A DNA stretch of 64,000 nt from Candidatus Peribacteria bacterium (lineage in GTDB: Bacteria > Patescibacteriota > Gracilibacteria > Peribacterales > Peribacteraceae): NCBI GenBank assembly GCA_023245865.1, contig JAHFJN010000001.1:550722-614721 (forward strand), read 5' to 3'. Positions 47,279 through 63,756 of the stretch are shown in pieces (the first letter of the stretch is position 1; the number at the start of each line of letters is the position of its first letter). The position numbers and the translations under genes were made by a program. A model generated the notes under the pieces. The model had not been told where the DNA came from. It did no database searches and saw only the letters and a program-made list of their open reading frames with translations.

Positions 47279-47353
47279 GGCCCCATCGTCTAACGGTTAG
47301 GACGCAGGATTTTCATTCCTGCAATCCGGGTTCGATTCCCGGTGGGGCTGCCA
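47279..47353 (+). tRNA. tRNA-Glu (anticodon TTC), CCA encoded
   Basis: GGCCCCA pairs with TGGGGCT (one G-T), T8 follows, the D arm is CGTCTAACGGTTAGGACG-like, the anticodon arm is CAGGA-TTTTCAT-TCCTG with TTC, and the T arm is CCGGG-TTCGATT-CCCGG. Discriminator G73 and CCA close it. It is also the integration site of the element to the right. Confidence 0.95.
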
Positions 47354-48940
47354 TAGTGAAAAATCGACATCAGAAATACTATGTTTTGGCTTAGGAATCA
47401 CGAAGGATCGAAGTTCGATCCGCTCTGATTTCTGGTTCATCGCTTCCAAGCCTTCTTTGATCTTCAAGAACGGAAATCTGGCTTCACACTGCACAATCCC
47501 GTCTTTCATTGTCCAGTTCGAGCCAATTGCCGTGAGGATAACTTTCTGAGTATCCACGCTGCCTATATCGAAGAACTTCAAGGCGTTGAAAGAGAATTCA
47601 AAGGTTTTGATGGTCCTATCTATTGCAGTATCTACATTCAATTCATTGTCATCGAGAAGCCTTTTGGCATGGTCTCGTTCTTTAGTAAGCGAGTTCTTTT
47701 GCACTTTAAACTCATCTTCACTAATTACTGAGCGGTCCATGTTATCAACTGCCACATAGAGTTTTACAAGATTCTGAATGGCTGCCATAGCATTGTCGTA
47801 CTTGCGTCGGAACTCTGCCAACTGCTTCTGCTGCCCTTTCTTATCCATCTCATGCATCCGCTCCATTTTATCCTTCAACCAAACTAGCAATCGCTCTGAG
47901 ATCGTTATGGCTTCGATATACTTCCTGAGTTGTGGAGTCATCTCATCTTTATTGAGCTGTACGGTCTGGGAACACGGACCCTTCTTCTTTGTGCATCGAT
48001 AATAGAGATGCACCCGTACATCCCCGTTCTTTTGTTTTTTTCGTTGAACATCACAGGTAATCATTGAATCGCATTCAGCGCAGTGAATCAGACCAGTGAA
48101 GGGAGAATTATGCTTTCGATTATTCGGCCTACCGTCCCTCCCTAGAATCATTTGCGCCCTCTCATACTCGGCATAAGTAATCATTGCGGGATGTTTCCCT
48201 TTGTAGAATTCTTTCTTCCACCAGAAATAACCCGCACAGAAAGGCGAGGCGAAAATTTTATAAAGACTACTGAGTGTGACTGGATGCTCTGGGCGCTTCT
48301 TAGTGGCACGGGCGGTCATGCCCCAGTCTTCCACCATGATGTACCAGATTTGTGGGACGGTGTAGCCACCCGTCAGCAGGAGCCTCCATGCCTTCTGCAT
48401 GTTTTCATACCGAAGATCATCTTCAGCGATAAAGCATCGACCTCGCTCACCTGGATTGATGTTGCTATAGCCAAGAGGAGCTTTCCCAGGGAACTGTCCA
48501 ATCTTGCACTTCGTGGTCATGCCTCTAGTCACATCTACACCCAACTTTTCCGATTGGTACTTTGATTGAGAGAGGGCAAAACTGAGCATCATTTTGCCCT
48601 CTGGCGAATTACTGAAAAAATAGGAACCGAACTGCAAATCTTTTATGACCTTGCGATCTAGTGCGTAAATCACCTCAGCTGCATCAATTGGGTTGCGGCT
48701 TAGACGATCAGGATGCCAAACGATTATCCCATCTGCTTCACCAGCCTCTATGCGTCTAAGCATGTCTTTGAACTTGGGGCGGTTGTAGGGCTTGAAGGCG
48801 CTACCGTCCTCCTCAATTTCCTCTACGATCTCTAGGTGCTGGAACTTCAACAGCAGCTCTTGGCGTTGCGATTGGATCGAGAGCGCCTGTTTCTCTTCGT
48901 CGGTGCTTCTACGGGCATACAAGAAGTATTTATAGGCCAT
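47297..48940 (-). CDS. Large serine recombinase of the integrated element
   Basis: 547 aa. N-terminal resolvase domain with catalytic Ser in YARRSTDEEK, and VWHPDRLSRNP; then a recombinase domain, a zinc ribbon (CAECDSMITC...CTKKKGPC) and a coiled coil. The final residues QPHRESNPDCRNENPAS and the stop codon are encoded by the antisense strand of the tRNA-Glu gene, overlapping it by 57 bases. The enzyme is therefore in place at the attachment site, as expected for a tRNA-targeting integrase. Confidence 0.93.
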   Translation of the reverse strand: MAYKYFLYARRSTDEEKQALSIQSQRQELLLKFQHLEIVEEIEEDGSAFKPYNRPKFKDMLRRIEAGEADGIIVWHPDRLSRNPIDAAEVIYALDRKVIKDLQFGSYFFSNSPEGKMMLSFALSQSKYQSEKLGVDVTRGMTTKCKIGQFPGKAPLGYSNINPGERGRCFIAEDDLRYENMQKAWRLLLTGGYTVPQIWYIMVEDWGMTARATKKRPEHPVTLSSLYKIFASPFCAGYFWWKKEFYKGKHPAMITYAEYERAQMILGRDGRPNNRKHNSPFTGLIHCAECDSMITCDVQRKKQKNGDVRVHLYYRCTKKKGPCSQTVQLNKDEMTPQLRKYIEAITISERLLVWLKDKMERMHEMDKKGQQKQLAEFRRKYDNAMAAIQNLVKLYVAVDNMDRSVISEDEFKVQKNSLTKERDHAKRLLDDNELNVDTAIDRTIKTFEFSFNALKFFDIGSVDTQKVILTAIGSNWTMKDGIVQCEARFPFLKIKEGLEAMNQKSERIELRSFVIPKPKHSISDVDFSLWQPHRESNPDCRNENPAS

Positions 48941-49002
48941 AGGGGTGGGTGAATTGAGGGATGCCCATAATCAAGGGCAGTATATAATTAGTTGGCTTAA
49001 AA

Positions 49003-49308
49003 TCAACCATCGTTTACGATGAAACAGAAGGTCCTCTGCTCTGGATGCGCTGTTACATAGTCTTTAAAGAATTGCACCATTGGTAACATTTCCTTAGAGC
49101 CAAACCACGGCTCACCTTCCAATACATCTTCAAGCGAGGGTAGCTCTTCTTGGCCGATGATATAAACACCACGTTCATGACGCTCTAGATTCAGAAAGGC
49201 TTCTCCAATGCCGCTCTTTTCAAGCACTGAAATCGCGCAGTGTGGTATCTCTGGGATCGATGATCCTACGGGACTGTTCCAATTAACATTTGCAGGAAAG
49301 ATTCTCAT
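49003..49308 (-). CDS. Small paralogous protein A
   Basis: About 101 aa from ATG 49308 (a longer frame reaches 49434). Shares with B, C and D the order: Gly-Ile-Gly-Glu-like turn (KSGIGEAFLN), a hydrophobic strand, an acidic helix (SLEDVLEGEPWF), a second helix (MVQFFKDYVTAHPEQ) and a FCFIVNDG-type end. Function unknown; it overlaps the end of gene B by 26 bases. Confidence 0.5.
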   Translation of the reverse strand: MRIFPANVNWNSPVGSSIPEIPHCAISVLEKSGIGEAFLNLERHERGVYIIGQEELPSLEDVLEGEPWFGSKEMLPMVQFFKDYVTAHPEQRTFCFIVNDG

Positions 49309-49639
49309 GCGAACTGGGGGAATCGGAAGTAAAAGCTGTGAAGCAGAAGTATTCTTGGCTGGGGTGGCTCTCCATGTACCCCGTAAGGGCGCGAAGGAGT
49401 AGTTGGTCATCGACGTTTCCTTTCCATTCCACATCCTCGCCTCCGAGGATTGCGTGCATCGTCGCTAAGTCAGTTTGGTCATCAACAGTTAGGAAGCATA
49501 TGAAGCTACATTTCTCCGATGAATACAGTGTCCCAATTCCGCTATCTGCGAGCCTTTTAAGGGCATCGAATGTGAGATGTGGAAGCGGAATCGTCCTGGC
49601 GCAGCAGTTCCAATTTCGTTGTGCGGGAATGAGGTCCAT
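49283..49639 (-). CDS. Small paralogous protein B
   Basis: 118 aa. Contains DSGIGTLYSS, a LLLRALTGYMESHPSQ helix and YFCFTAF, matching genes A, C and D. The beginning is divergent. Function unknown. Confidence 0.5.
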   Translation of the reverse strand: MDLIPAQRNWNCCARTIPLPHLTFDALKRLADSGIGTLYSSEKCSFICFLTVDDQTDLATMHAILGGEDVEWKGNVDDQLLLRALTGYMESHPSQEYFCFTAFTSDSPSSHENLSCKC

Positions 49640-49665
49640 AAAAATGAAGGGTAGAAAAATAAAGA

Positions 49666-49992
49666 TCAGAATTCGTCTGACGCAAGAAAACAGTAAGTGT
49701 TGTATGGCGTAGGATTTTTTTCTATATATTCAAGAATCGTTTGCGCGAGTTTATTTATTGCATCAAGCATTTCGGGCGGCACGGCATACCAGTTTTTCTT
49801 CTTCAGAACATCTCGTAGACACTCAATATAATGGCTATCAAAAACCAGAAAGCCCATATTGTGGTCGCATGGGTTTATGTATGCCTCACCGCAGGAGTTC
49901 TGTGCGAGCTTCACAATAAGGCAATGCGAATTCTCGTCTTCGTATAGCGTTGGAGTAAAATCCCATTCTAATTTGGCAGTGCGGAGATTCAT
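49666..49992 (-). CDS. Small paralogous protein C
   Basis: 108 aa from ATG 49992. LYEDENSHCLIVKLAQNSCGEAYIN, LRDVLKKKNWY (both in part), ILEYIEKNPTPYNTYCFLASDEF. LYEDENS is shared with gene D, whose stop is 24 bases upstream. Function unknown. Confidence 0.5.
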   Translation of the reverse strand: MNLRTAKLEWDFTPTLYEDENSHCLIVKLAQNSCGEAYINPCDHNMGFLVFDSHYIECLRDVLKKKNWYAVPPEMLDAINKLAQTILEYIEKNPTPYNTYCFLASDEF

Positions 49993-50015
49993 AAAGTGAG
50001 GGTAAAAAAATGAAA

Positions 50016-50309
50016 TTAATTCATGAGCATGAACAGGTATTCCTCTCGCTGATGAGTTGTCGCATACCCAATGATTGACTCGATAGCTGCTTGAAGAAGA
50101 GGTTCTTCTTTCCAATCCTTAAGTTCCTCAATTTCATATTTGTCGAGCATTAAGAATGCGATGGCGGGGTCTTCCTGTCCCATGTCATGCGTTCTAATAA
50201 ATACAGAGCCGATGCCGCCCTGAGGAAGGCGATCCATTAGCAGGACTGAATTTTCATCCTCATACAGAGGATGTTTGCCGTCTGAGTCGAAGGATGCGTG
50301 AATTTCCAT
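50016..50309 (-). CDS. Small paralogous protein D
   Basis: 97 aa. LYEDENSVLLMDRLPQGGIG, IEELKDWKEEPLL and SIIGYATTHQREEYLFMLMN follow the family plan. First of the four in the transcription direction, 52 bases after the primase gene stop. Confidence 0.5.
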   Translation of the reverse strand: MEIHASFDSDGKHPLYEDENSVLLMDRLPQGGIGSVFIRTHDMGQEDPAIAFLMLDKYEIEELKDWKEEPLLQAAIESIIGYATTHQREEYLFMLMN

Positions 50310-50360
50310 GAGAGTAATTGGAGGAAAAATTAAACAGAATTACACACTGTAGGATTGGCT

Positions 50361-52313
50361 TTATTCGGTACTGGAATTAAGTGGATCTGACCCCGTGTTC
50401 CATTTGAAGTGTGAGCGGCATTCTTCCGAGCTGAACCACATAAAGTCTTCCTGGAACTGGATACCCTTTTCGGTTGTTAGATCGTCAGGGTCCCACTCCT
50501 CGCAGATGCCGAGGATTTTCATTGTCTGCATTTCGTGGAGAGCCGTTGGCTTTGATACCTTTAAGACTTTCTCCACTTGTCCCGTTGTAATCCTCCCGCC
50601 ACGTTCGATAAGTGCGTGCAGCAGCTCTGCACGATGCCCTGGGGCAGAATCGCAAGCGAGCAGGACCACGCATGGCATGTCCTCATCCGTAATGTGTTCC
50701 CTCCCAAGAGCAACAGCGTGGCCTCTGGCGAGGTTGTAAAGCAGCTGGTTGAGTCGGTCAGGTTTCTCAATGACGGGAGAGTGGTACACCAATTCTTCGC
50801 CCGTATCGTTGCGCTCCCTATCGGTATTCAATGTCCCACGGAGCTTTGCCAAGAGGCTCGCGCATCGTGCGATGATCATGAGATGGCTTGCCTGATCTTT
50901 GGATTTATCCCATGCGATGCCGTCACGGTGCTTTGCCCAGAGTGTTCGCAGCAGGTCGCCCGTTACTTTACGACACACCATTTCTTTCTCCTTACAGGCA
51001 TTGCCCTGTAATTGGCGCACAAGCTCCTCATTCGTCTTTGTCTTCATGTGCAGACCCAAGAAGAACAGGCGCGGTCCCTGGTTTCCCATGACCTTCCAAA
51101 CGCGCCTTGGGATAGGCGTAGAAGCCGCGAGCAACATGAAAAGGTAATCGCCTGTGCGGGTCCGTTGCCCGTGAACTCCTCCATCCGTTGCAAGTCCCTC
51201 TCCATCGAGTACGCGGGTAAGAATGCCCACGTTTGAGATAAGGTCCTCCTCTCGCGCAGAAAATACCGTAGCGAGGTCGCGGATGCAGAACATGCGGTAT
51301 TTAAGGCGAGGAAGCAGGTCTACCTTTTCCAGGTCTTCACGTTTGACGTTTGCGGCATTCGATACGAAGGACGCGGGACTAAATTTATCCGATGGATACA
51401 TAAGTTCGGGAAGCCCAGACTCGGCAAAAAAGTTAATTGTTATCGTTTTGCCAGCCGCTGGAACATCGATGAGAACGAGTGCGAAGGGATTGGTAATGTC
51501 CTTGATGAGCAACTGTGCGACGGTGCTTAACGCGATCTCAGAGGCTACAACGAGTTCCTGAAAGTTCTCCCGAATAACGCTCCTCCATTCGTTGATTTCG
51601 ACAGGCTGCTTTGGCGCAGTCAGTAGAGCAACTCGTGGTCGGCTGTCATTTTCATCCTTCTTTTTATCACCTGATTTTGGTGTTTTTTTGGCGAAGGACA
51701 ACAGTTCGGTCTTGAAGTCCTTTCCCTTTTTCTTGCAGTGGCGAGCGAAGTCAGTGATGTCGCCGCCATCGCCAAGCAGTTCGGGTAATTCAATTCTGAA
51801 AAGCTCAATATCAGGTCTCTTTTTTTCGAAAAGACGCATCGTTTTGTCGGCTCCCTTCCTGCCCGCATCATCGAGGTCAAAACAAATAGTGACCTTGATA
51901 CCTTTTGGGAAGTATTTGAGCCATTCTTCTTTGAAAGTTCCTGCGCCACCAGTTGAGCAAATTGCCTCTATTCCATTCCCGATAAGCAAGAGTGCGTCTG
52001 GTTCGCCTTCACAGAGAATGATGTCCGTTGCATCGCCAATGTAGGGCAACGGATACAGCGTAGCTGGGCTTCCTTTGGGATATACCAAGTTTTTAGGTTG
52101 ATTCTCCTTACCGTCACTTGGTCTCTTCAGCTTATAGAAAAGCGGTTTGCCCTCTGCATCACGGATAGGGATTACAACCCATTTGTTCTGCGCGTGGACA
52201 GTCCATGCGATGCCCTGGCTCTCCAGGATGTCCTTGGACACGCATCGTTCCTCAAGCCAGTACTTGAGTTCACCAGAGGGCAACGGCTGTAACTTGAGGG
52301 GTTTCTGTGTCAT
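50361..52313 (-). CDS. TOPRIM primase-like protein with ATPase region
   Basis: 650 aa from ATG 52313. A TOPRIM domain shows ILCEGEPDALLLI (catalytic Glu) and CFDLDDAGRKGADK (DxD). The second half has LIDVPAAGKTITINFF, a Walker A-like loop, and a C-terminal winged-helix-like region (RGGRITTGQVEKVLKVSKPTAL, in part). It probably primes or initiates replication of the element. The start overlaps the stop of the upstream 92-aa gene (ATGA). Confidence 0.7.
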   Translation of the reverse strand: MTQKPLKLQPLPSGELKYWLEERCVSKDILESQGIAWTVHAQNKWVVIPIRDAEGKPLFYKLKRPSDGKENQPKNLVYPKGSPATLYPLPYIGDATDIILCEGEPDALLLIGNGIEAICSTGGAGTFKEEWLKYFPKGIKVTICFDLDDAGRKGADKTMRLFEKKRPDIELFRIELPELLGDGGDITDFARHCKKKGKDFKTELLSFAKKTPKSGDKKKDENDSRPRVALLTAPKQPVEINEWRSVIRENFQELVVASEIALSTVAQLLIKDITNPFALVLIDVPAAGKTITINFFAESGLPELMYPSDKFSPASFVSNAANVKREDLEKVDLLPRLKYRMFCIRDLATVFSAREEDLISNVGILTRVLDGEGLATDGGVHGQRTRTGDYLFMLLAASTPIPRRVWKVMGNQGPRLFFLGLHMKTKTNEELVRQLQGNACKEKEMVCRKVTGDLLRTLWAKHRDGIAWDKSKDQASHLMIIARCASLLAKLRGTLNTDRERNDTGEELVYHSPVIEKPDRLNQLLYNLARGHAVALGREHITDEDMPCVVLLACDSAPGHRAELLHALIERGGRITTGQVEKVLKVSKPTALHEMQTMKILGICEEWDPDDLTTEKGIQFQEDFMWFSSEECRSHFKWNTGSDPLNSSTE

Positions 52314-52588
52314 AGGAAGCAGGTGGAAAGGAATTCGGCTGCCTCCTTCAAAGAGCATTCGTTGATGTGCATCACGAGATCCAAAGTGGACCCCTGTGAT
52401 ACGCCACCCTGCTCTTTGCCTGAAAACCGCTTCCAGGTGTTTGTTTTCTCAAACAATGTGAGCGAGGTTATCTCGCCATCCACTCTCATGGCATACGCAC
52501 CTGCTCCCGTCTTCACAACTTCAACACCAATCTGATGTGCGACTTCAAGGATTGGGATTTGCCGTAGAGCATCGAAGTTCTTATGCAT
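52310..52588 (-). CDS. Cys-less CHC2-like primase N-domain
   Basis: About 92 aa from ATG 52588 (an in-frame start at 52729 would add 47 residues). It follows the CHC2 primase zinc-finger plan (IPILEVAHQIGVEVVK, SLTLFEKTNTWKRFS, STLDLVMHIN, LKEAAEFLS), but the metal-binding Cys/His are gone. Coupling by ATGA to the TOPRIM gene suggests the two make one split primase. Confidence 0.6.
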   Translation of the reverse strand: MHKNFDALRQIPILEVAHQIGVEVVKTGAGAYAMRVDGEITSLTLFEKTNTWKRFSGKEQGGVSQGSTLDLVMHINECSLKEAAEFLSTCFL

Positions 52589-52805
52589 AGAAGTGAGGTG
52601 AGAGGAGTGGTGAGAGTGAAGGGTGAGCTTTGCGTTCCAAATTGTTGCGAGCGTGATAAGGCTTGAGATAAAGCGGTTTTCTGCTGATAAATCTTGAGTA
52701 TTAGCGCGATTAAAAGTAGAATTCTTCATAAGGAATAAGGGAAAAGAGCTAGTCTTCTTGCAAGGAGGGCGGCTATTTTTCCTGTTTATGGAGCTTGCGG
52801 CATTA
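52589..52805. other. Intergenic gap, no clear feature
   Basis: 217 bases between the CHC2-like gene and the 47-aa gene, AT-rich in the middle. I see no convincing hairpin or promoter pair. An alternative N-terminus for the CHC2-like gene covers its left half. Confidence 0.3.
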
Positions 52806-52949
52806 TCATGGGGATGGCTGTGTAAGGAGGTAAGCGAAATGAACTAGTGCCTCTGCCTCTTTCCGTGCCTGTTCCTGGGTCATTTCAACGCCAAATTCCT
52901 CACGGATAATTTCGATGAACTCAGCCACGTCTGAATCATTGAGGCTCAT
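52806..52949 (-). CDS. Small acidic helical protein, 47 aa
   Basis: Starts ATGAGCCTCAATG; product MSLNDSDVAEFIEIIREEFG...ends LLTQPSP. It is a predicted helix pair, and the EEFGVEMTQEQARKEAEALV-like stretch is a pattern common in small CPR element proteins. Its start overlaps the stop of the DUF5659-like gene by four bases (ATGA), which supports it despite its size. It was too short for a standard length cut-off. Confidence 0.55.
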   Translation of the reverse strand: MSLNDSDVAEFIEIIREEFGVEMTQEQARKEAEALVHFAYLLTQPSP

Positions 52950-53182
52950 AGTTGAAAGTCGTAAAGGATGTGCTTTGCGCGTTTAAGCGAAGTCAAAAGA
53001 GACTGTGCAGGACACATCAAAGTGTCACTCCAGTAAGCTTGGAGGATTTGTTGCAAATTGGGCGACTGCTCAAAAACGAATACGACCCGATGCGGTTCTG
53101 TTCGGTCTATCGTGATGAGTTTGCACTGCTTGTGGAGCAGTACGGCTGCCGTTGGAAGATCGTGTGTTCTGTAATCCTGCAT
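52946..53182 (-). CDS. DUF5659-like small protein
   Basis: 78 aa. RTHDLPTAAVLLHKQCKLITID, HRVVFVFEQSP and LQAYWSDTLMCPAQSLLTSL match the DUF5659 plan of a conserved RTxDLxxAA start and an xxFxFxxS strand. Common on mobile DNA in CPR; function unknown. Confidence 0.6.
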   Translation of the reverse strand: MQDYRTHDLPTAAVLLHKQCKLITIDRTEPHRVVFVFEQSPNLQQILQAYWSDTLMCPAQSLLTSLKRAKHILYDFQL

Positions 53183-53241
53183 GATGGTTGCAGGAAATCA
53201 CATAGCTGCCCCTCATTGCACGGTATCCGATGCGTCTTCAT

Positions 53242-55044
53242 TTACTTTGATTTCTTTCGATTTGTTTTCATTCGCAGGCTTATTTTATTTTCAAATTGGG
53301 GAAGGCGGGGCAGGTTTCTCTTCGAGAGATCATCTTCATAAATTGGGTTGGCGAACACTACCCTGTAATTTGATGTTGCTGGGAAAAACATTTTTCGTAG
53401 ATCTCCCTGAAAACCCAAGGATGTTATGACATCTGGTATTTTTCTCTTCTCATTATTCTGAATTTGCCTCAATTGCGAAGTTTCTAGGATGATGGGATTT
53501 GTATCCACTTTTTTCAAAAGAATTTCGCACAAGCGATCCCCAATGCTTCCCGATTGTGGTTTTCCGAATGCGATGCCATTAATGAAAAGTTCTCCTGATA
53601 ATTCGTCACGGCTAAGCAGATACGCAATAGATCGAATGTTTTCTTGCTCTGTAGCAATTGGGACAGCTTCCTTTTGCAGAGATGCCTCTTCTAACATTGC
53701 AGTTACGTCTAATCTACTGGCAAGTGCAGACAGTTTCTCTTCATTTGGAAAGAAGGTAATTCTGTTCATTCGGTCATAGCCATCAAGTGCCGCAGGACCA
53801 ATGTAATTCCAGGCCATGGGTTCCAACTTAGCTCGTGGATAATGGAAGGTTACTTCTTGAAGATATCCTTCATTCTTCATTAGAAGACACAAATCATGCA
53901 ATCCTCTTTTAGAGAGACTTGGAATACTAGCTATCATTTCAGAAGGATCGATGACGATAGTTCCTTCAGGGGTACGCAGCGGTCTGTAATCAAGTACTAC
54001 CTGTGCTATACGCATTTTCTTCTCCTCGATGGACAAATAGCTCTGCTCTTTGAGGGGCATTGGAGATTGGGATTTCGCGATAGGTGCGAGCTTTTTCACA
54101 AGTATCAGGAGTTCGAGTTGTCCATTCTCATTCTTTTTGATTTCATCAATTTCAATTTCTTTAAGTTCATCAAGGGCAAGTAATGTTTCCAAGGGCTTAT
54201 ACCCCTCACTAGTTATCTCATCTTCTAACTTAAAATCCTTGGCGCTCACCCAGAACCCCTTGGAATGCTTATATACTGCATGCTTATGTGCCAATATTTC
54301 GGACGTGATTGCCTTCTGCTGTGGCCAGTCCAATACATGAGTTTGCCAATCAAGCAGTTCAGCATCGTTGATGAAATTCTGTATATATGAATCGTAAAGT
54401 GGCTGAAGCTCTCCTCGGAGTTGGTCGTGCTCTGAAACGAGCTGTAAGTTAACAGGATTGAATTGGATGAAATCTTTAGTAGTTGTTATTGAAGGATCTT
54501 CATGTGGGTTCTCTTCCAAATTTAACTTGAAATCTCGATTGATGACCTCCTGTCGTGCGAGCACCAAAGTGTCGGCAAGAATGCCAGATTCTCCAAGGGT
54601 CGTCATTATTAGGTGTTCTGCTTTCACTAATTCCCACATGTTAATGGATTTTACATTCGTATATTCGGATGTACCGCCTGGTAATGTCTGACGGATCATT
54701 TTTATCATTCTCATACAATCCGTCCTGTCATATTCAAATTCCTCTTGGCTAGTTACAATAAATTCGCACCGCATGCTATGTAAGCGAGCACTATGGCAGA
54801 TGTTCAAAACATCATGAATGGGAGGGAACACGGAACTGGCGCATTCGCCAAAGGATGCACGTTTCCAGAGCAAATCTATGAGAAAAGCATCTTTTAAATC
54901 CCTCAATACCTCTTCAGCTGTCATCGTTCCATCAACAGTATTAATATCGCAATTTTCCTTTACCCAAACCAAATAATTTTTCAGTACCTTGAGAACAATC
55001 AAAGTATTTGGGTGCAGTAGCGGTTTTTTCTTCTCAATACGCAT
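53242..55044 (-). CDS. Large hypothetical protein, AT-rich gene
   Basis: 600 aa from ATG 55044. N-terminal helical region, mid-region with ELKEIEIDEIKKNENGQLEL, and a C-terminal part alternating helices and strands, possibly ending in winged-helix-like folds (IPSLSKRGLHDLCLLMKNEGYL, in part). No family recognised. The gene is clearly more AT-rich than the rest of the window, suggesting separate acquisition. It is divergent from the DUF3800 gene. Confidence 0.6.
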   Translation of the reverse strand: MRIEKKKPLLHPNTLIVLKVLKNYLVWVKENCDINTVDGTMTAEEVLRDLKDAFLIDLLWKRASFGECASSVFPPIHDVLNICHSARLHSMRCEFIVTSQEEFEYDRTDCMRMIKMIRQTLPGGTSEYTNVKSINMWELVKAEHLIMTTLGESGILADTLVLARQEVINRDFKLNLEENPHEDPSITTTKDFIQFNPVNLQLVSEHDQLRGELQPLYDSYIQNFINDAELLDWQTHVLDWPQQKAITSEILAHKHAVYKHSKGFWVSAKDFKLEDEITSEGYKPLETLLALDELKEIEIDEIKKNENGQLELLILVKKLAPIAKSQSPMPLKEQSYLSIEEKKMRIAQVVLDYRPLRTPEGTIVIDPSEMIASIPSLSKRGLHDLCLLMKNEGYLQEVTFHYPRAKLEPMAWNYIGPAALDGYDRMNRITFFPNEEKLSALASRLDVTAMLEEASLQKEAVPIATEQENIRSIAYLLSRDELSGELFINGIAFGKPQSGSIGDRLCEILLKKVDTNPIILETSQLRQIQNNEKRKIPDVITSLGFQGDLRKMFFPATSNYRVVFANPIYEDDLSKRNLPRLPQFENKISLRMKTNRKKSK

Positions 55045-55163
55045 ATTGTACAAATACTATCTTTAATGTGCTTTATATGGAATGTGTCATGTCACATAAT
55101 CTCCCTACTGCGACATCAAACCAGCTGTGGCTGTTTAGCAGCAAGAACGATAAAGTGATTCGT
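55045..55163. promoter_or_regulatory. AT-rich divergent intergenic region
   Basis: Between the 600-aa gene and the DUF3800 gene. AT-rich, with ACTATC and TATATGG boxes; likely carries both promoters, but I cannot assign them. Confidence 0.35.
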
Positions 55164-55895
55164 ATGTCGTCCTACTTGTTCCTCGATGAAACAGGAGATC
55201 ATGGCCTGAAGCACCTCGATCCGAATTTCCCCATCTTCCTTCTCTGTGGCTGCCTCTTTACGGAGAAGGCTCTTGTTGCCCATCAGCAGGATTTAGACGC
55301 GATAAAGATGAAGTACTGGAAAACGACGAGCGTTATCTTGCACTCACGGGACATCCGCAAGTGTGAAGGTCCGTTCCAAATATTCTTTGATCTCTCACTC
55401 AAACAATCCTTCTATGCCGATCTCGATCAGGCGATGGAACGAGCAGAATTCACAGTAATTGCCGCCGCAATCAACAAGGAAGAGCACATCAAGAAATATG
55501 GGCGACTCGCTCATGATCCCTATGATGTTTCTCTTTCATTCATTATGGAGCGTCTCGTGTATTGTCTCGATGACCAGGGAGCATCGAGCGATGCAAAACT
55601 CATCTTTGAAAAGCGAGGCTACAAGGAAGATATGCAGCTGATTGCACATTTCAACTCCATCCGTGATGTGGGGACGCATTTTGTGAGTGCTGAGCGAATA
55701 CAGCAGCGCATTATCGGCTGTGATTTCTTAGCGAAGAAAGAGAATGCTATTGGACTTCAGTGTGCTGATCTTTGTGCCTACCCTCTTGCTCGTAGCTTGG
55801 TCTTAAAAGGAGAGCCTTCAAAAGCGGCAGATATCATCTCCAAAAAGATCTATCGCAAGGGCACAAAGGTGCATGGATTGAAAATCTTTCCATAG
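55164..55895 (+). CDS. DUF3800 protein
   Basis: 243 aa. SSYLFLDETGDHG (family YxFxDESGD), then LHSRDIRKCEGPF and a C-terminal LQCADLCAYPLARS, all typical of DUF3800, which has an RNase H-like fold. Such proteins are often found on mobile elements and near defence genes. ATG 55164 matches the family start; an in-frame ATG at 55089 is possible. Confidence 0.75.
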   Translation: MSSYLFLDETGDHGLKHLDPNFPIFLLCGCLFTEKALVAHQQDLDAIKMKYWKTTSVILHSRDIRKCEGPFQIFFDLSLKQSFYADLDQAMERAEFTVIAAAINKEEHIKKYGRLAHDPYDVSLSFIMERLVYCLDDQGASSDAKLIFEKRGYKEDMQLIAHFNSIRDVGTHFVSAERIQQRIIGCDFLAKKENAIGLQCADLCAYPLARSLVLKGEPSKAADIISKKIYRKGTKVHGLKIFP

Positions 55896-55901
55896 CAAAA
55901 A

Positions 55902-55943
55902 GTCCTAGTTTCCTAGGACCCCTTACCGACCGGGGACACCCCG
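55902..55943. terminator. Two adjacent hairpins between convergent genes
   Basis: GTCCTAG/CTAGGAC (55902-55919) and CGGGG/CCCCG (55931-55943) lie between the DUF3800 stop and the reverse transcriptase stop. Probably transcript ends for one or both. Confidence 0.45.
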
Positions 55944-56008
55944 ATCCATTGGCTCCATAGTATCTAATAGATGAACAAATGTCCACCTAAAAGTAAGGTT
56001 TATAAGAC

Positions 56009-57055
56009 TTATTCACTTAGCCAAAACCAATACTCATTCTTTAGCCTATCGCTTAAACGATAGGAATTGGCATGAGAAAGGACTCCAAGATAGGAATGGA
56101 GAGATTGTTCAACTGACTCCTTGCTACCCGTGCCATTCCTACAGGCTATCGCTCTCAGGTGTAGCTTTCTGAACATTCGTTGTTTTGTGCGAGTGCGAAC
56201 AACCCTGCAATGAGGCAAAAGAACGTAGCCGAGGAAATCTATTCCCTGACGATACCTCCGCATTGAGATTTTCCGAGGATGGAGATCAAGGCACAGATAC
56301 TCCTGAAGAAACGCCCTTATAGGCTGGATGAGGCCACGTAAATACTCAGGATCATTCGAGACTATGGCAAAATCATCGGTATAGCGGACATAGTTCTGAA
56401 CGCGCAGAGTGTGCTTTATGAATTGATCCAGCTCGTTCAGATAGACGTTGGCAAAAAGTTGGGAAGTAAGATTGCCAATAGGAACTCCCTTGGTTGCAGG
56501 AGTAAATCGAGCCGATTTGAAGCTGCCCACAATATCTTTGAGGAGCCACATTGCATCATCATCTTTCATGCGTTTTCCAAGGATGTTCAGCAAAATATTG
56601 TGGTCAACGCTATCAAAGAACTTATGGATGTCGCACTGTAGAACAAAGCAGCGTTCATGACCATTTCGGCTGATCTTACTCAGCATTTTCTCCAAGGAAT
56701 CCACGGCTTTATGAGTCCCTTTGCCATCACGACAAGAAAATGAATGTGAAATAAACGAAGGTTCAAAGATAGGATTCAAAATGGAGAAAACTGCATGATG
56801 CAGAATGCGGTCACGGACTGTGGCTTTGTGAATGTGCCGCTGCTTGGGGTCGCAGATGAAGAAGGCAGAGTAAGGGCTGTGCGTGTATGTCCGTGACTCC
56901 AACTCCCTGTGCAGCGCGAAGGTATTTTCTTCCAGCTTCCACTCAAATTCCTGTACGTCAGTCCGAGACCCCTTGCCTCTCTTAAAACCCTCCCAAGATG
57001 AGAATAAGTGCTCTAGCGCAATGATGCGGTTGAATATATCCTTGTGAACTTTCAT
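56009..57055 (-). CDS. DGR reverse transcriptase
   Basis: 348 aa from ATG 57055. DGR-type RT marks: VPIGNLTSQLFANVYLNELD in place of the group II PQGxxxSP motif; RYTDDFAIV (catalytic YxDD); QCDIHKFFDSVDHNILL; IDFLGYVLL. It copies the template RNA into cDNA with errors at adenines. The start is only 10 bases from the divergent avd gene. Confidence 0.93.
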   Translation of the reverse strand: MKVHKDIFNRIIALEHLFSSWEGFKRGKGSRTDVQEFEWKLEENTFALHRELESRTYTHSPYSAFFICDPKQRHIHKATVRDRILHHAVFSILNPIFEPSFISHSFSCRDGKGTHKAVDSLEKMLSKISRNGHERCFVLQCDIHKFFDSVDHNILLNILGKRMKDDDAMWLLKDIVGSFKSARFTPATKGVPIGNLTSQLFANVYLNELDQFIKHTLRVQNYVRYTDDFAIVSNDPEYLRGLIQPIRAFLQEYLCLDLHPRKISMRRYRQGIDFLGYVLLPHCRVVRTRTKQRMFRKLHLRAIACRNGTGSKESVEQSLHSYLGVLSHANSYRLSDRLKNEYWFWLSE

Positions 57056-57065
57056 ACACTTTCTT

Positions 57066-57416
57066 ATGGAGGAACTGGATATTCCCATCTTCAAACGGGC
57101 TTACGAACTCTATAAGACCATGCACGGTTACAGAGGAACCGTGCCTAAAGCAGATCGGCATACCCTCTGGCAGCGCATTGAAAGTCTTACTTTGGAGGCG
57201 TTGGAAGGTATTCTGCTGGCCAGTCAGCTTTCCAAAACCCAAAAGCTCCAGCCGCTGGAGCAAGTGAGCGTGAAGCTCAATATGCTCCGTGTCCTTCTGC
57301 GCCTTGCCAAGGATATCAAGGCCATTGATCTGAAGAAGTACGCCACATTGGAGATGATCGTTGATGAGATGGGCAGGATGCTTGGCGGCTGGATCAAGTC
57401 TGTGAAGGAACGATAG
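57066..57416 (+). CDS. avd: DGR accessory variability determinant (Avd)
   Basis: 116 aa forming four helices: IPIFKRAYELYKTMHGYRG, KADRHTLWQRIESLTLEALE, MLRVLLRLAKDIKAIDLKKY and MIVDEMGRMLGGWIKSV match the Avd four-helix bundle. Avd forms a pentamer that binds template RNA and the RT. Here it runs opposite to RT, TR and targets, which is unusual. Confidence 0.88.
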   Translation: MEELDIPIFKRAYELYKTMHGYRGTVPKADRHTLWQRIESLTLEALEGILLASQLSKTQKLQPLEQVSVKLNMLRVLLRLAKDIKAIDLKKYATLEMIVDEMGRMLGGWIKSVKER

Positions 57417-57437
57417 TAGGTTTGGCTGAGAGGGAAG

Positions 57438-57551
57438 TTCCGCGAGAGGGAGAGGCCGAGATCGTCATTCGAGTTGTCAGGCCTATCGTTGTTGACGTTC
57501 GCGCCGTCTGAATCGCAATTGCCAAGATAAACGAGGTTGCCATCCGAGGAG
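57438..57551 (-). repeat. DGR template repeat (TR)
   Basis: Aligns without gaps to 57960-58073 (VR1) and 59043-59156 (VR2). On the minus strand it reads like AAC/AAT-rich coding text (SSDGNLVYLGNCDSDGANV...). Of 26 template adenines, 18 differ in VR1 and 17 in VR2; none of the other 88 positions differs. A GC-rich, nearly A-free end (57440-57460) is the expected initiation site for mutagenic homing. An open frame passes through it, but it is not a gene. Confidence 0.95.
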
Positions 57552-57552
57552 T

Positions 57553-57949
57553 GATTGCCCTTTCCCGTCCGTATCACTGGGAATCGAGGTTTACGCCCAG
57601 CCGTACAAAAAAACACTGGGTTATATCCTCTCTCCCCTGAATTTAATGTGGTAGCAACCATCCCGTGGAACGGGGTGATACCTACGCTAGGAAAGAGCAA
57701 GAAGTTCCCTCTCAGTCTTCGCCCATGCGCTACCGTTCTCCGTAGAGAAGCGATATTCTGATGGGTTCCACCTACGCAGAGCTTCAGTGGTAACGAAGCG
57801 AGGGTGACAGCGAGCAGGAACCGTAATCCCTGCTACATGAGCGGACACCACAAACACAGTACATTGCTGAATAGCAATATTGCCAATATAAAAAATTTGC
57901 AGCCGAGAATTCAAGGATTCAATAGGCTCAAAACTTCAAAGCTCAAGGC
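57553..57949. other. 397-base gap between TR and target 1
   Basis: No convincing gene. Short frames exist on both strands. At 57704-57719, GAAGTTCCCTCTCAG is an inverted near-copy of the TR right-edge flank at 57427-57441. Bases 57912-57953, full of TTCAA/GCTCAA, lie just after the target 1 stop and resemble 58990-59036 after target 2. It may hold structures needed for template RNA or homing. Confidence 0.4.
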
Positions 57950-58948
57950 TCAGAGGAACTTCCGCGAGAGGGAGAGGCCGAGATCGCCATCCGAGACGCC
58001 AGGCCTACCGCCGCCGACGCCCGCGCCGCCCGAATCGCAATAGCCAAGAAAAACGAGGCCGCCATCCGAGGAGAGTGTGGGAGTCCAAGTGTAATTATCT
58101 TCCAAGATACGTTCGCCCTTATTTCGGTAGCTCTGGAGGAAATCATACAGAGCTTCAGCAGGAGTATGCCGCATGAGACGATTGAGCTTCAGCACAGAGA
58201 GCTGCTTAGCCGCTTCTTCCCAATTACTATCCATGAGTTTTTCAATGTTCTTCTTCAATTTCTTGAACTCATCAACGGCCACCTGATAGGGAGGAGGCAA
58301 TGGCTTTCCTGCAAACAGCGTGTCCGTCACATAATCCGCAAGCAGTTGGGTCTGTTCAAGATAGTTCTTTTCAGTTGAGTCTGGCAGTACCGTGTCCGAT
58401 GTGAATGCCCAGCAGAGATCAGGAGTTTCTTTCGTGAAGAAATCCTCTTTCTCGTACCAGTCGGTATCGTACAGAACCTTATCCCCATCCTTTTCAAAGG
58501 TATCAGATAGAAGCTCGTTCATCTTCTGCATGGTAAGAGGTTTGCCATCTGGGGCTTTATTCACGCGCAGCCGCAACGTGTGTCCCAACTTCGCATGACG
58601 TTCCAATTCTTCCTTGGAAGGCAAGGTAGGGATATCTGCTTCCCTCAGTTCAATGCCGAATACTTTCTTCACTTCCTCAATTCCAAAGAAGCGGCCATTC
58701 ATCATCTCTTTGGCTTTCTCGATGGATGCACTTGGCTTTGCGGATGGCACAGTAAGGACGCTGCTCAGTTTTTGCTGGAGAGTGCCAAGGAGCCTATGTA
58801 ATTCCTTCTTCTCTGCTGCTGGAGCATGGGGCAGCCTGGAAAGATTGCGTACCTCTTCAAGAATCGGATCAGCAACTTGCCGCACGTCCGCGCTGCCCTG
58901 GTAGCCAGGGCTGCTTTGTACTCGATGGATGAAGGATTCGTTTTCCAT
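57950..58948 (-). CDS. DGR target protein 1 with variable C-terminus
   Basis: 332 aa. Residues 87-332 are paralogous to the C-terminal half of target 2: RFFGIEEVKKVFGIELR, RHAKLGHTLRLRVNKAPDGK, LYDTDWYEKEDFFTKETPDL, LLADYVTDTLF. The last about 40 residues are the VR: SSDGGLVFLGYCDSGGAGVG...LSLSRKF. This looks like a C-type-lectin-like DGR fold. No AAA+ domain. It may act as a separate recognition subunit. Confidence 0.9.
   Translation of the reverse strand: MENESFIHRVQSSPGYQGSADVRQVADPILEEVRNLSRLPHAPAAEKKELHRLLGTLQQKLSSVLTVPSAKPSASIEKAKEMMNGRFFGIEEVKKVFGIELREADIPTLPSKEELERHAKLGHTLRLRVNKAPDGKPLTMQKMNELLSDTFEKDGDKVLYDTDWYEKEDFFTKETPDLCWAFTSDTVLPDSTEKNYLEQTQLLADYVTDTLFAGKPLPPPYQVAVDEFKKLKKNIEKLMDSNWEEAAKQLSVLKLNRLMRHTPAEALYDFLQSYRNKGERILEDNYTWTPTLSSDGGLVFLGYCDSGGAGVGGGRPGVSDGDLGLSLSRKFL
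57960..58073 (-). repeat. DGR variable repeat 1 (VR1)
   Basis: 114 bases; differs from TR only at 18 template adenine positions. Several changes are A to G, giving Gly-rich residues (GAGVGGGRPG). Confidence 0.95.
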
Positions 58949-59032
58949 GATGCAAAAGGTGATTTTTCGTCAGTAGCGGAGGATTTCAAGGAATAAGTAT
59001 TCAAAAAGTTCAAGGCTTCAAGAGAGCAAAGT

Positions 59033-61057
59033 TCAGGGGAACTCCCGCGAGAGGGAGAGGCCGAGAACGCCAAACGAGAAGTCAGGCCCATCGTAGAAGA
59101 CGCGCGCGCCGTCTGAATCGCAACGGCCAAGAAAAACGAGGTAGCCATCCGAGGAGACTTCATTCGTCCATGTCCATTTGTCCTTTAGAGTGCGCTTTTT
59201 ATCACTTGTGGCGCGGAGCGTTTGCACGAAATCAAACAGCGCAGCCGCTGGCTTGTGGCGTAGCGTGTTGAGTTTCAACTTTGACAGTTTCTGTGCGGCA
59301 GCTTTCCAGTCGCTGCTCATCAGGCGTGTAATTTCGGGCTTTGCAGTGTCAAATTCTCGCAGTGCCTCCTCATACTCCGCTGGCACTTTCTCCCCCTTGA
59401 AGAGAGTGTTGCGAACGTAGTCAGCGAGGAATTCCGTCTGCTGCAAGTAGTTCTTTCCAGTAGAGCCAGAGAGAACCGTATCCGTGGTAAAGACCCAAGC
59501 GGTTTTCGGAACATCATTCGTGAAGAATGATTCTGTTTTGTACCAGTCTCTTGGGTACAACACTTTTCCATCTTTATCCTTCGCAAATTTCTCCTCCATC
59601 AGTTCTGCCATGCGTTTCATCGTGAGAGGTGTGCCATCGGCTGCTTTGCTTACGCGCAGCCGCAGCGTGTGGCCGAGTTTGGCATGACGCTCAATCTCCT
59701 TTCGTGGAGGCATTGCAGGGACTTCAGAAGGCTTGAGTTTGATGCCGAATGATTTTTCCAATTCCGTGAGACCGAAGAATTGCCCTGCTCCCATCAATTC
59801 TCTGGCCTCATGCTCCTCTGCCGAGGTCGCGGGTACGGCTTCTGCCGTGGGAACAGCACCTTCTAGGAGATCAAGAATCTGCTGCTTGCGTTCCGCAATT
59901 TCCGCATCAATATCACGTCTTCCCGTTTCCAATCCTTTGCGCTTGGAAGGGGTAGCGGGTGCGGTGTAGGAAACATGGCTCACAAGCTCCTCCAGCTTTT
60001 GCCTGTCCTCATCGGCAAGCAGCTTATTGACGTAGTAGTACCTGAGAGCTTTCTGAAAGGTCTCAGTGATATCGCCATTGTAGAAACGCGATACGAAGTC
60101 ACGGACGCGCCGTGGCTCCTCACGGTCATCGTAAGCGAAAGGCTGAGGCTGGCCGCTAGCAATGGAACGCTGCTGCAAGAGACCATTGGCAGCCGCATGG
60201 AATTCCATGTACTTCTCAGCGATCAGCTCAATGCCAGGAATCTCCGCCATTTGCTCATCGGTTAGCGCATAGTCTCTGGGTATGACGAGCGCATTGCTTT
60301 GCACATGCTCCTCTTTCTTGCCCACTCCAAAGAGTGCTTTTGTGGAAAACTTGAACGCTTCTGGGGGCAATCTGTCAGGCAATTTTTGATACACCCATCG
60401 GCGCAATTGAGCAGGGTCAAGCGCGGGACGCTGGAGATAGCCCTTACCAGGAGGGTTCATGAAAGCTGCAACCTTCGTACATTCTTTGTTTGTGGAAATA
60501 TCTTCTGAGGCATCCTCAGACAACACCACTTTGCCGCCTCGTTCCAATGCATCCAGTACCTCATGGAGACGGATAAGAACGTTAGGCGCGGCGGCATTAA
60601 ACTCATCAAGGATGATGACTTTTATCTTTCCTTTCTCCTGTCGTAGTCCGCTTGTTACCCTGCCATCTGCAAAGACATATTCAGGGTCTGTAGGACCCGT
60701 TTTATTGGCATTAGGAATGTACTTGCCCATAAGATCTTCCACGTCCGTAGCACCATTGAGGTTTACATAGTGGACTTCCCATCCAAGTTCAGATGCCATC
60801 TTGCGAACGGCAGTCGTTTTTCCAATGCTCGTGCCAGCCTCAATCAGAATCGGCTCTCCCATGAGGAAGCTGATAGCGAGCTTCTGCTGCAACTGGAGCA
60901 CGGAGAAACGGTCATTGATGTATTCAGCGTATTTCCCTTTTTCAGGAATGAGCGGACTCTCGCGGTTTTCCGCTTTTGGCAGTCGCACTCCCGCATAGGA
61001 GACAGCATCATCTGCGTCTTCTATAGGTGCCGAGAATGTATCGGGTTGAGTGCTCAC
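59033..61057 (-). CDS. DGR target protein 2: MoxR-type AAA+ ATPase with variable lectin-like C-terminus
   Basis: 674 aa. AAA+ domain about 50-330: Walker A-like EAGTSIGKTT (Lys80), Walker B VIILDEFNAA (Asp151, Glu152), sensor AAFMNPPG. Linker about 360-425. Residues 427-674 match target 1, and the last about 40 are VR2 (SSDGYLVFLGRCDSDGARVF...LSLSREF). A MoxR ATPase carrying a hypermutated domain is rare. With the vWA gene upstream it resembles MoxR-vWA chaperone pairs. 3 bases separate it from the 139-aa gene. Confidence 0.92.
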   Translation of the reverse strand: MSTQPDTFSAPIEDADDAVSYAGVRLPKAENRESPLIPEKGKYAEYINDRFSVLQLQQKLAISFLMGEPILIEAGTSIGKTTAVRKMASELGWEVHYVNLNGATDVEDLMGKYIPNANKTGPTDPEYVFADGRVTSGLRQEKGKIKVIILDEFNAAAPNVLIRLHEVLDALERGGKVVLSEDASEDISTNKECTKVAAFMNPPGKGYLQRPALDPAQLRRWVYQKLPDRLPPEAFKFSTKALFGVGKKEEHVQSNALVIPRDYALTDEQMAEIPGIELIAEKYMEFHAAANGLLQQRSIASGQPQPFAYDDREEPRRVRDFVSRFYNGDITETFQKALRYYYVNKLLADEDRQKLEELVSHVSYTAPATPSKRKGLETGRRDIDAEIAERKQQILDLLEGAVPTAEAVPATSAEEHEARELMGAGQFFGLTELEKSFGIKLKPSEVPAMPPRKEIERHAKLGHTLRLRVSKAADGTPLTMKRMAELMEEKFAKDKDGKVLYPRDWYKTESFFTNDVPKTAWVFTTDTVLSGSTGKNYLQQTEFLADYVRNTLFKGEKVPAEYEEALREFDTAKPEITRLMSSDWKAAAQKLSKLKLNTLRHKPAAALFDFVQTLRATSDKKRTLKDKWTWTNEVSSDGYLVFLGRCDSDGARVFYDGPDFSFGVLGLSLSREFP
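59043..59156 (-). repeat. DGR variable repeat 2 (VR2)
   Basis: 114 bases; differs from TR at 17 template adenines and nowhere else. Its substitutions are different from those in VR1, so the two repeats have diverged independently. Confidence 0.95.
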
Positions 61058-61060
61058 GAA

Positions 61061-61480
61061 TTAAGATTGGTAAACGATGCCTGTACTGGCAAGAAAATCC
61101 ATGCCGTTCTTTTGCGCCGAAACCAGCGTGTCTTTCGTCAGGAGGAGTACGAGCGTAACACCCTCGTAGCGGGGCGTAGAGACCTGTGGTTGCATCGTAG
61201 AGCGGTTCCACATCTCCACCTGGCCTGTCGGATATTGCACTGAAAAATCATAGTAATCTTTCGCGTGGGAAGCATCAGCGAGAATGCTGTATGCCTTACC
61301 TGGGTGATCGGAGGCAATGGAGAATTCCAAAGGAGTATTCACAGAAGCGAACCCTAGAACATCTAGCTCCCTTTTGAGAGATGCCAGTTCCTCCTCATCT
61401 TTCGCAATCACAAGCGACACCTCCTTCTGCCCTAGGGCATAGGTGATGAAGTCGGTGATAGCGGATGTTGACATGCTCAT
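61061..61480 (-). CDS. Conserved hypothetical protein between vWA and AAA+ genes
   Basis: 139 aa. Soluble alpha/beta protein with a helical N-terminus (STSAITDFITYALGQKEVSL) and beta-rich rest (YEGVTLVLLLTKDTLVSAQK). No family recognised. Spacing of 3 bases to the AAA+ gene and 19 to the vWA gene suggests it is part of the same complex, perhaps as an adaptor. Confidence 0.6.
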   Translation of the reverse strand: MSMSTSAITDFITYALGQKEVSLVIAKDEEELASLKRELDVLGFASVNTPLEFSIASDHPGKAYSILADASHAKDYYDFSVQYPTGQVEMWNRSTMQPQVSTPRYEGVTLVLLLTKDTLVSAQKNGMDFLASTGIVYQS

Positions 61481-61499
61481 ATTATATTACATTATAACA

Positions 61500-63629
61500 C
61501 TAAATACCTCCCTGATCAATGACACTTCGCAGAAGCGTAGCCAGTTTCTTGGATAGCTCCTTTGCCTCAATATCGGCAATGCTATGAGGATAATAGGAGG
61601 AAACGTGTCCTGTTCCCAGTCCTATACCCAGTCCAATAAGATACTGATCGGTATTTTCAAGAATACTACGCACCTCCATTGAGAGTTCATATTTGCCACG
61701 AGGATGCATGGGCGATTCCTCAGGCTTTCCATCAGAAAGGACAACGAGGAACTTTTCTGATTCCTTCTGTCTCGCAAGCCGCTCAGATGCTTGTCTGAGC
61801 GCCCAACCGTCATCGTTATACTGTGCCTTACCCGTATCGCTGCAATCAGATACCTCTTTGAGCATTCCTCCCATCTGTTCTTGCTTCTGTGTGCTCAGCT
61901 CCTCTCCGTAGGACTGGTACGGGTAGATACGATCATTAAATCCCAGTATCTCCATCTTGATTGAGAGCCGATTCAGCACCTCAGCAAGGGCGACAACCGC
62001 CTTAAAGGTCTCTTGAATTTTTCTGCCATTATTCATGGAACCAGAGAGATCTACGAGAAGCGTAATAGCGTAATCCTCCTCTGTAGGAAGCTCTCTCCGT
62101 TCCCATGCCTTGCTCTGCACGGCAGGGACTCCTTTCGCTCTTTCCTGCATCCGCTTGGTCATGTTGATACGCTTGCCTGTGGGGTTCCCTTTAAGCCATT
62201 TGCGAGCGCGGCGTTCCGTGAATATCTCGCGCAGATCATTCTCTAGTTCATCAATGATGGGCAGCACTTCTCTGCGTGTTGCTTCGTACACATTGGCATC
62301 TTTTCCCAGAAGCTGTTCCACTTGTCTCTTGAACTGTTCCACTTCGGGATGTGGAACGGTTTTCTCAAGATCCTCACCTTCAGAGGAGTCCACATCTTTC
62401 TTCACTTCCTTTTTCTGTGCAGCCTCAGGTGTTTGCGAGAGCTTTCCTTGAATGGCATCAGCAATCTCATCCGCAAATTCTTTCAGCGCAGCCTGGGCTT
62501 TTTCTTCCAATTCCCTGCGTTCTTCCTCAGGTAACTCCTCAATCGCTTTACGGATTTTTTCTTTCAGGCTCTCAGGCAAGCTATCCAAATCCACAATGCC
62601 GACTGGCTTGCCATCGTCGGCTGTAGCTTCAAGAGCGGCCTGTGGCGTTCCTTGTGTTTCCTGCCCGCCCTCTTGCCCCTTCTGAGCCAGTGCTTTGGCA
62701 ATGGCCTGAGCCACGGCTTGCTGGATAGCTTCCCCCAAGGCTTGCCGTTCCTCATCGGTGAGGCCATCTATGAACGATGAATCCTCCTTCTGCTGCATGT
62801 CCTTCAAAAACTCCTGCATCTCCTCATCTTTTTTGTCTTTCTCAATGAGGGTCTGAAAGAGCGGCCAAACCTCATCACGGTTGATCTCGTAGCTCTGCTT
62901 CGAGTACTCGCTAATAACCGCTTCACTTGTGTCTGCTTCTGCCCTGTTTGGATATCTCCACCATGAATCCCTCGCAGCTTCTAATGTCTTTGCTACGACA
63001 TCACGCACCTCTTCAGGAAGATCAGGTGTAAGTTCCGAAGGCTGCTCCTGCACCTCCCTAAACCATTGCTTGATGTACTCAAATCCAGCGAGCATGAAAC
63101 GGGGTCGGAAACCTATTTTCTCTTTGGATTCCTCCTTTGCTTTTTTCTCCTCGTCCATATCTGAGGCATACGCAGCTGCCATCTGCTTTCCAAAGAGAGG
63201 GTAGGCTTCAGCAACGAAGTTATTGATGCGTGGATCTTCAATGGAATTCATCATGAATGGGAATCCAGGTTGCTTCCATGTCTCCAATGGAATGTGATCG
63301 GTGCGTGAAATTCTCCTATGGCCGCCTTCATGCGAAATCACAAATCGCAGATAATCCATCGGTTTCTCCAGCAAATCCTTGGGATCGATCCGCACGATGT
63401 TTTGATCAAAATCCCAATGCCATCCTGCCCCAGGTTCATTCAACTCCACAGGCATGGCGAAGTCCTTTCCGATGAACGATGCGAGAGAGGAAAGAATTTG
63501 CCGTTTCTTCAAAATCTCCGCTTGCTGAGGACCATCAAATGACTTGAGAATTTCCTGTTCGCGGACCGCACGAAATCTACCGTTTTCCTCTCTATCTTCA
63601 TCAGGCCGTCCCCAGTCTGGACGTTTCAT
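61500..63629 (-). CDS. vWA-domain protein with HEGGH zincin-like motif
   Basis: 709 aa. N-terminal region with VISHEGGHRRI (residues 97-107, HExxH) and SIEDPRINNF (Glu131), the pattern of gluzincin-like domains fused to vWA proteins. The middle is Glu/Gln/Lys-rich and helical (about 275-430). The C-terminal vWA domain has MIDAS DLSGS (Asp527, Ser529, Ser531) and VVLSDGKP. It resembles CobT-type partners of MoxR/CobS AAA+ ATPases. It heads the operon before the 139-aa gene and target 2. Confidence 0.88.
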   Translation of the reverse strand: MKRPDWGRPDEDREENGRFRAVREQEILKSFDGPQQAEILKKRQILSSLASFIGKDFAMPVELNEPGAGWHWDFDQNIVRIDPKDLLEKPMDYLRFVISHEGGHRRISRTDHIPLETWKQPGFPFMMNSIEDPRINNFVAEAYPLFGKQMAAAYASDMDEEKKAKEESKEKIGFRPRFMLAGFEYIKQWFREVQEQPSELTPDLPEEVRDVVAKTLEAARDSWWRYPNRAEADTSEAVISEYSKQSYEINRDEVWPLFQTLIEKDKKDEEMQEFLKDMQQKEDSSFIDGLTDEERQALGEAIQQAVAQAIAKALAQKGQEGGQETQGTPQAALEATADDGKPVGIVDLDSLPESLKEKIRKAIEELPEEERRELEEKAQAALKEFADEIADAIQGKLSQTPEAAQKKEVKKDVDSSEGEDLEKTVPHPEVEQFKRQVEQLLGKDANVYEATRREVLPIIDELENDLREIFTERRARKWLKGNPTGKRINMTKRMQERAKGVPAVQSKAWERRELPTEEDYAITLLVDLSGSMNNGRKIQETFKAVVALAEVLNRLSIKMEILGFNDRIYPYQSYGEELSTQKQEQMGGMLKEVSDCSDTGKAQYNDDGWALRQASERLARQKESEKFLVVLSDGKPEESPMHPRGKYELSMEVRSILENTDQYLIGLGIGLGTGHVSSYYPHSIADIEAKELSKKLATLLRSVIDQGGI

Positions 63630-63756
63630 ACATTATATTTTACTGTATTACTACGAATAAATCAAGCTAGAAAGCCCGAATGAGCGTGTTCTACCGCAGT
63701 CAGTCATGAATTCACATGCTGACTGTAAGATGTCGGGTAAAGGGCTTTTATCTGTT
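63630..63756. promoter_or_regulatory. AT-rich region upstream of the vWA operon
   Basis: Contains minus-strand TATAAT two bases before the vWA ATG and TAATAC further up; the operon promoter probably lies here, but the exact start is unclear. Confidence 0.4.

Follow-up and report, generated by a model that had tools for sequence, protein, structure and literature searches.

According to one account (PMC9262239), the serine integrases of mycobacteriophages do not use tRNA genes as integration sites, and tRNA is absent from the main text of a systematic survey of large serine recombinases (LSRs) (PMC10083194). Crystallography of a Listeria integrase has led to the rule that the outer motif, recognised by the zinc domain, lies 5 bp nearer the centre of the site in attB than in attP (PMC3783163). 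An attachment site inside the integrase gene itself is described for the 'suicidal' tyrosine integrases of the archaeal SSV type, integrases that a review calls exclusive to archaea (PMC8371274). We found no earlier description, in the open-access literature, of serine recombinases at tRNA genes of Patescibacteria. Here we analyse an LSR gene of a Candidatus Peribacteria bacterium that ends inside a tRNA gene on the opposite strand. Its attP very probably lies within the 3' end of the recombinase gene itself, and integration at the tRNA would thus swap the C-terminus of the protein, since the last codons of the gene belong to the site.

The window, that is, the whole stretch of 64,000 nucleotides that was analysed, carries a tRNA-Glu(ttc) gene with encoded CCA at 47279-47353 (+ strand; ARAGORN), which we read as the left half, B, of an occupied bacterial attachment site. 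The recombinase gene (47297-48940, - strand) encodes 547 amino acids in its integrated-state form and ends in ...SLWQPHRESNPDCRNENPAS. The initial annotation of this DNA had stated that a serine recombinase reads 57 bases into the tRNA on the opposite strand, and the coordinates bear this out: the overlap comprises 57 bp at 47297-47353 (- strand), or 18 codons and a stop (WQPHRESNPDCRNENPAS). The TGG codon for the Trp of a WQP motif is the reverse complement of the CCA end of the tRNA, and the 15 residues that follow WQP are exactly those predicted to change upon integration, in agreement with the earlier proposal that the last residues derive from the attachment site. By its domain content and by the fold of a family member, the enzyme is an LSR. 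Pfam identifies a Resolvase domain (PF00239, E 1.6e-20) and a recombinase zinc ribbon (Zn_ribbon_recom, PF13408, E 2.6e-6), the N-terminal serine resolvase domain has its catalytic serine, with R10 and S12 invariant across the family alignments, and the predicted model contains the long helices (349-396 and 408-434) of a coiled coil. A model of a relative, L102, gave Foldseek matches to LSR-att complexes with E values down to 4.5e-20. The window LSR is the sole Resolvase-family gene in the 1.1-Mb genome.

The final 10 bp of the tRNA gene, GGGGCTGCCA (47344-47353, + strand), recur 28.9 kb away on the same contig, in the same orientation as the tRNA end (G000:C3:627004-627013; 76283-76292 in extended window numbering), and form the predicted core common to attL and attR. 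This second copy stands outside the window, between the last element-side ORF and a TfoX-like host ORF. The left part of the integrated element occupies 47354-64000 and continues to about C3:627003; because the window ends inside the element and the far core copy lies at C3:627004-627013, we place its length at about 28.9 kb. The G+C content of the element is 0.467, against 0.536-0.542 in the flanks; the largest right-hand step, measured in 4-kb windows, falls at 78.7 kb rather than 76.3 kb, and the core copy lies within about 2.5 kb of it. The pattern TGGCAG-N(14-18)-TTCGAAC occurs a single time in the whole 1.1-Mb genome, at the predicted right end and with a spacing of 16, where chance would give 0.35 occurrences per Mb for any spacing from 14 to 18 and 0.075 for a spacing of 16. 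A right-end repeat of the tRNA beyond position 64000 had been anticipated from the letters of the window; a duplicate is indeed present there, but it is just 10 bp long, and a search for a long repeat in the manner of tyrosine integrases gave nothing convincing. A second tRNA-Glu gene (ctc, C3:675003) was considered as the other end and rejected, being on the wrong strand and 77% identical.

When the arm to the right of the far core is joined computationally to the LSR gene across the core, a free-state protein of 555 amino acids results. Its end, WQP-LGEMIRTFWAESQETFDLPILAV, begins with LGEMIRTFW after WQP and finishes in PILAV, as against WQP-HRESNPDCRNENPAS in the integrated state, so the suggestion that the protein end differs between integrated and excised states stands as a prediction, with both ends now specified. 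Such native ends follow a pattern. The predicted end of the window LSR and 30 ends from relatives align as W-x7-[IVA]-R-T-x-[FLW], with Arg in 31/31, Thr in 29/31, Phe, Leu or Trp at +3 in 30/31 and hydrophobic residues 4-5 positions before the Arg; Trp occupies its aligned place in 19/31, the remainder belonging mainly to a second frame class. This conservation extends beyond the 7-bp DNA motif TTCGAAC. The same core rule gives free-state ends for two elements without inverted repeats, WLPRKWDARTLL in G029 (6.06 kb) and WSGLLESITTVM in G013 (6.65 kb), both with the spacing from Trp seen in the window prediction. At least five relatives (L100, L102, L107, L124 and L133), which are LSRs of other phyla, have native ends with no tRNA in sight; these read DVRT[FY][FL], encoded by GTT-(C/A)GA-AC, and the attP-type motif is apparently intact on their contigs. 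Two further recombinases, L121 and L122, are 93.6% identical in DNA and split exactly at a core, GGGCTCC, past which one runs into tRNA-Asn and the other into a native-type end.

The tRNA-derived tails show no such order. They differ in isotype, in frame and in length, the distance to the tRNA edge ranging from 11 to 292 nt. The tRNA-derived tail thus looks like a by-product, what is conserved being the free-state tail that integration would remove. Relatives of the recombinase do stand in other tRNA genes with unrelated ends, an outcome that had been put forward as evidence against the swap, yet it favours it. In viral contigs, a single-protein query returned no close relatives of the window LSR, whereas an alignment query found relatives.

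We then compared the spacing of the outer motif on the two sides. Past the 6-nt core TGGCAG, this motif lies at 16 nt in the attP arm (TTCGAAC) and at 11 nt on the tRNA side (ATCGAAC), the window comparison covering one half site, with P' against B' outside it. On the tRNA side the motif coincides with the T-loop (GGGTTCGATTCC, 47328-47339, + strand; antisense ATCGAAC), which occupies the attB position of the zinc-domain motif. Among 26 relatives in which both arms could be read, the attP side has TTCGAAC further out, by 5 bp at 16 loci and by 4 bp at the other 10. The 5-bp shift, together with the single attP-type site in the genome, makes it plausible that the T-loop acts as the outer recognition motif. 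As T-loop TTCRA and the CCA end are near-universal, this would explain why many tRNA isotypes can be targeted.

The search for corresponding sites in related genomes gave mixed results. The best homologue (G003, 52%), on a truncated contig, had no match to an attP-type site, and the same core-rule search at the right end of G026 gave no convincing native end. A clean empty tRNA-Glu site, which the initial annotation had proposed as a check, was not found in relatives: the nearest syntenic one, in G023, was rejected as a vacant site, as it holds a different LSR that likewise reads into the tRNA. That LSR (L198; tRNA at 9028-9102, with the ORF on the opposite strand, G023:C26) is distantly related, enters tRNA-Glu(ttc) in another frame, ends in AAPRGIEPRLQE and has, some 250 bp away, a homologue of the TfoX-like gene next to the window element. 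L180 (G002:C5, end VWLNFYSC) was considered as a circular free form and set aside, as it is without a terminal repeat.

The recombination reaction itself we infer as follows. In the free circle, the recombinase ORF would cross the core, continue in the P arm and end in the conserved native C-terminus (WQP-LGEMIRTFW...), and the same arm would bear the outer recognition motif TTCGAAC. The attB would be the 3' end of the tRNA gene, recognised via the core at its CCA end and via T-loop TTCRA, with the motif 5 bp nearer the core. Crossover within the core would keep the tRNA intact. The P arm and the native end that it encodes would be relocated to the opposite boundary of the element (attR), and the recombinase gene would be left fused in frame to antisense tRNA until a chance stop. 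The free-circle junction is then expected to consist of the sequence left of C3:627004 followed by GGGGCTGCCA and TAGTGAAAAATCG, and the empty site of tRNA-Glu followed by GTTTACCTTTTC.

The overlap between LSR and tRNA genes is widespread. We examined 100 LSR loci drawn from genome and viral collections. The LSR gene enters an antisense tRNA in 48 of them and is cut off by the contig end in 7; of the other 45, just 5 are followed by a tRNA within 200 bp, so that 48/53 of the loci with a tRNA downstream show the overlap. Adding loci from related genomes to those of the public collections, we count about 63 distinct LSR genes, the window included, that overlap an antisense tRNA of one of 14 isotypes; in 43 of these 63 the stop codon falls within the tRNA, and the other 20 continue past it. 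The target isotype changes at least 34 times across a tree of 59 LSR sequences. At 30 tRNA-Glu loci of this and related genomes, antisense frames are no longer than 78 codons where neither an LSR nor a remnant of one is present, apart from one non-LSR frame of 213 codons. Short antisense frames at LSR-free tRNA-Glu genes and the 48/53 overlap together argue that the overlap is not due to chance. In IMG/VR, two predicted proviruses (L088 and L080) stop exactly at the LSR end, and the last residues of these LSRs resemble antisense tRNA (RRDSNPRP... and RDRGIEPL...).

A sister clade displays a further architecture. In 29 relatives, the recombinase gene lies between inverted repeats of 63-150 bp (median 105) that are 87-100% identical, and fully identical in 16/29. 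One arm consists of the last 21-48 codons of the LSR gene up to the tRNA end; the other directly precedes the gene and, on contigs that extend far enough, leads into a native end. About a dozen loci have a second pair of inverted repeats enclosing a cargo block that abuts the first pair (L161 at 8829-11455, L156, L177, L138, L168, L134, L148, L152, L176, G011:C8 and G012:C7), and at the far end of such double-block loci the tRNA core recurs as a short direct repeat. This suggests that a circle formed from them would hold two inverted attP sites. The arms are near-identical within a locus and the recombinases only about 30-50% alike, suggesting ongoing flipping or gene conversion. These loci are confined to one 36-row clade that excludes the window recombinase. 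No inverted repeats were found around the latter, and the flip model is therefore inapplicable to the window element. A chain of abutting inverted-repeat blocks is also present beside tRNA-Ser in a complete genome (AP024682; L175, about 4465-15090); it contains two recombinase copies, one of them degraded, together with cargo genes, and looks like repeated insertions at one tRNA. A wider reading is possible and should be held tentatively: LSRs of Patescibacteria and some other phyla may use T-loop TTCRA and the CCA end as a general attB, keep attP in their own 3' codons and so write the integration state into their C-terminus, and in one clade a circle with two inverted attP sites may consist of an integrase block and a cargo block, with the gene flipping to regain its native end without excision. 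The inverted-repeat architecture with a spare native end is possibly new.

The anatomy, with attP inside the gene, is a matter separate from what the swap does to the enzyme. The reading that we favour, though it is far from certain, is that loss of a native C-terminal helix weakens or redirects the recombinase, so that the integrated copy would be partly self-inactivated until excision. AlphaFold predicts a helix for the native end of L102 (residues 489-501; pLDDT 81 and 86 in 10-residue blocks) and a mostly disordered tail for the window LSR (503-547; pLDDT 33-44), a comparison that is suggestive only, since the proteins differ, the alignments are shallow and pTM is low (0.46 and 0.37). Set against this is the reading, possible if rather doubtful, that the swap is purely a by-product: attP would overlap the last codons of the gene to save space, neither tail would affect the enzyme and the ORF would simply run to the next stop. 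The variable isotype, frame and length of the tRNA-derived tails (11 to 292 nt) and the predicted disorder of the window tail are what it would lead one to expect, and the motif TTCGAAC forces part of the conservation of IRT at the DNA level. However, native ends are conserved outside that motif, in the residue at +3 (30/31) and in the hydrophobic residues at -4 and -5, the L102 end is predicted to be helical, and throughout the sister clade a spare copy of the native 3' end, in inverted orientation, is retained beside the gene; conservation, helix and spare copies suggest that it is the native end, rather than the tRNA-derived one, that has a function.

The native end might alternatively act through protein stability, the free-form tail ending in PILAV being a degradation tag that integration removes, as in the repressor of mycobacteriophage BPs. 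In phages of that type the end of the repressor is altered in this way, and the integrases bear ssrA-like tags (PMC9262239); the window free-form tail likewise finishes in small hydrophobic residues. We consider this very unlikely, as the native ends (RTDLR, RTFFEQNPQ, RTFFKN, RTILSAP) share no C-terminal tag and their conserved part is internal. That there is no mobile junction whatsoever, and that the stop codon of a chromosomal recombinase gene drifted by chance into the adjacent tRNA, is extremely improbable. A single genome could look so, antisense tRNA frames being often open, but the same overlap is seen for about 63 LSR genes across 14 isotypes, antisense frames are short at tRNA-Glu genes without an LSR, and the far end of the window element offers a core copy with a native end as well as boundaries in G+C and gene content. 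We therefore retain an attP within the 3' codons of the recombinase gene as the preferred reading.

The element also contains a diversity-generating retroelement (window 56009-61057), with a reverse transcriptase (56009-57094), a template repeat (57422-57577) and two ORFs that each end in a variable repeat (57944-58099 and 59027-59182); one of these ORFs is an AAA ATPase (59033-61057). Mismatches between template and variable repeats fall mostly at template A (26/46 and 23/42). Just beyond the window (G000:C3, 64148-65065 in extended numbering), the element seems, from a translation read by eye, to carry a tyrosine recombinase, and a second recombination system may thus act on it.

Taken together, these loci point to bacterial serine integrases that use tRNA genes as targets. 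They would provide a natural case in which integration rewrites the integrase's own end, and part of the directionality question becomes open to direct test. The swap would also account for a recurrent oddity, namely recombinases that end in translated antisense tRNA (DSNPR, GIEP), because the sequence for their free-form ends sits at the opposite boundary of the element. Enzymes that target tRNA genes could be useful integration tools in poorly tractable bacteria.

With the LSRs Listeria LI and A118, Bxb1 and phiC31, the window recombinase shares the Resolvase domain, the recombinase zinc ribbon, the long coiled coil and a short core, as well as an outer motif that in attB is set 5 bp closer to the centre than it is in attP (PMC3783163). 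It differs from them in targeting the 3' end of a tRNA, with attP predicted inside the 3' end of its own gene and a product that would change upon integration. The inverted repeats of the yeast 2-micron plasmid are comparable with the two inverted attP copies of the putative sister-clade circle. Mycobacteriophage BPs, with its integration-dependent immunity, likewise has attP inside a gene, and one of its proteins acquires a different C-terminus when the phage integrates at a tRNA (PMC9262239); in BPs, however, it is the repressor that changes, losing a degradation tag, and the phage integrates by means of a tyrosine recombinase, whereas here attP lies in the integrase gene, by our reading, and the native ends are without a common terminal tag. 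The SSV-type integrases come close in having the att site in the integrase gene, a tRNA target that is mirrored in the protein, and isotype switching (PMC8371274). They belong to an unrelated enzyme family and are tyrosine recombinases split in two by partition of the gene, whereas the window LSR is a serine recombinase with its catalytic and zinc domains in one ORF, of which only the last residues would be exchanged.
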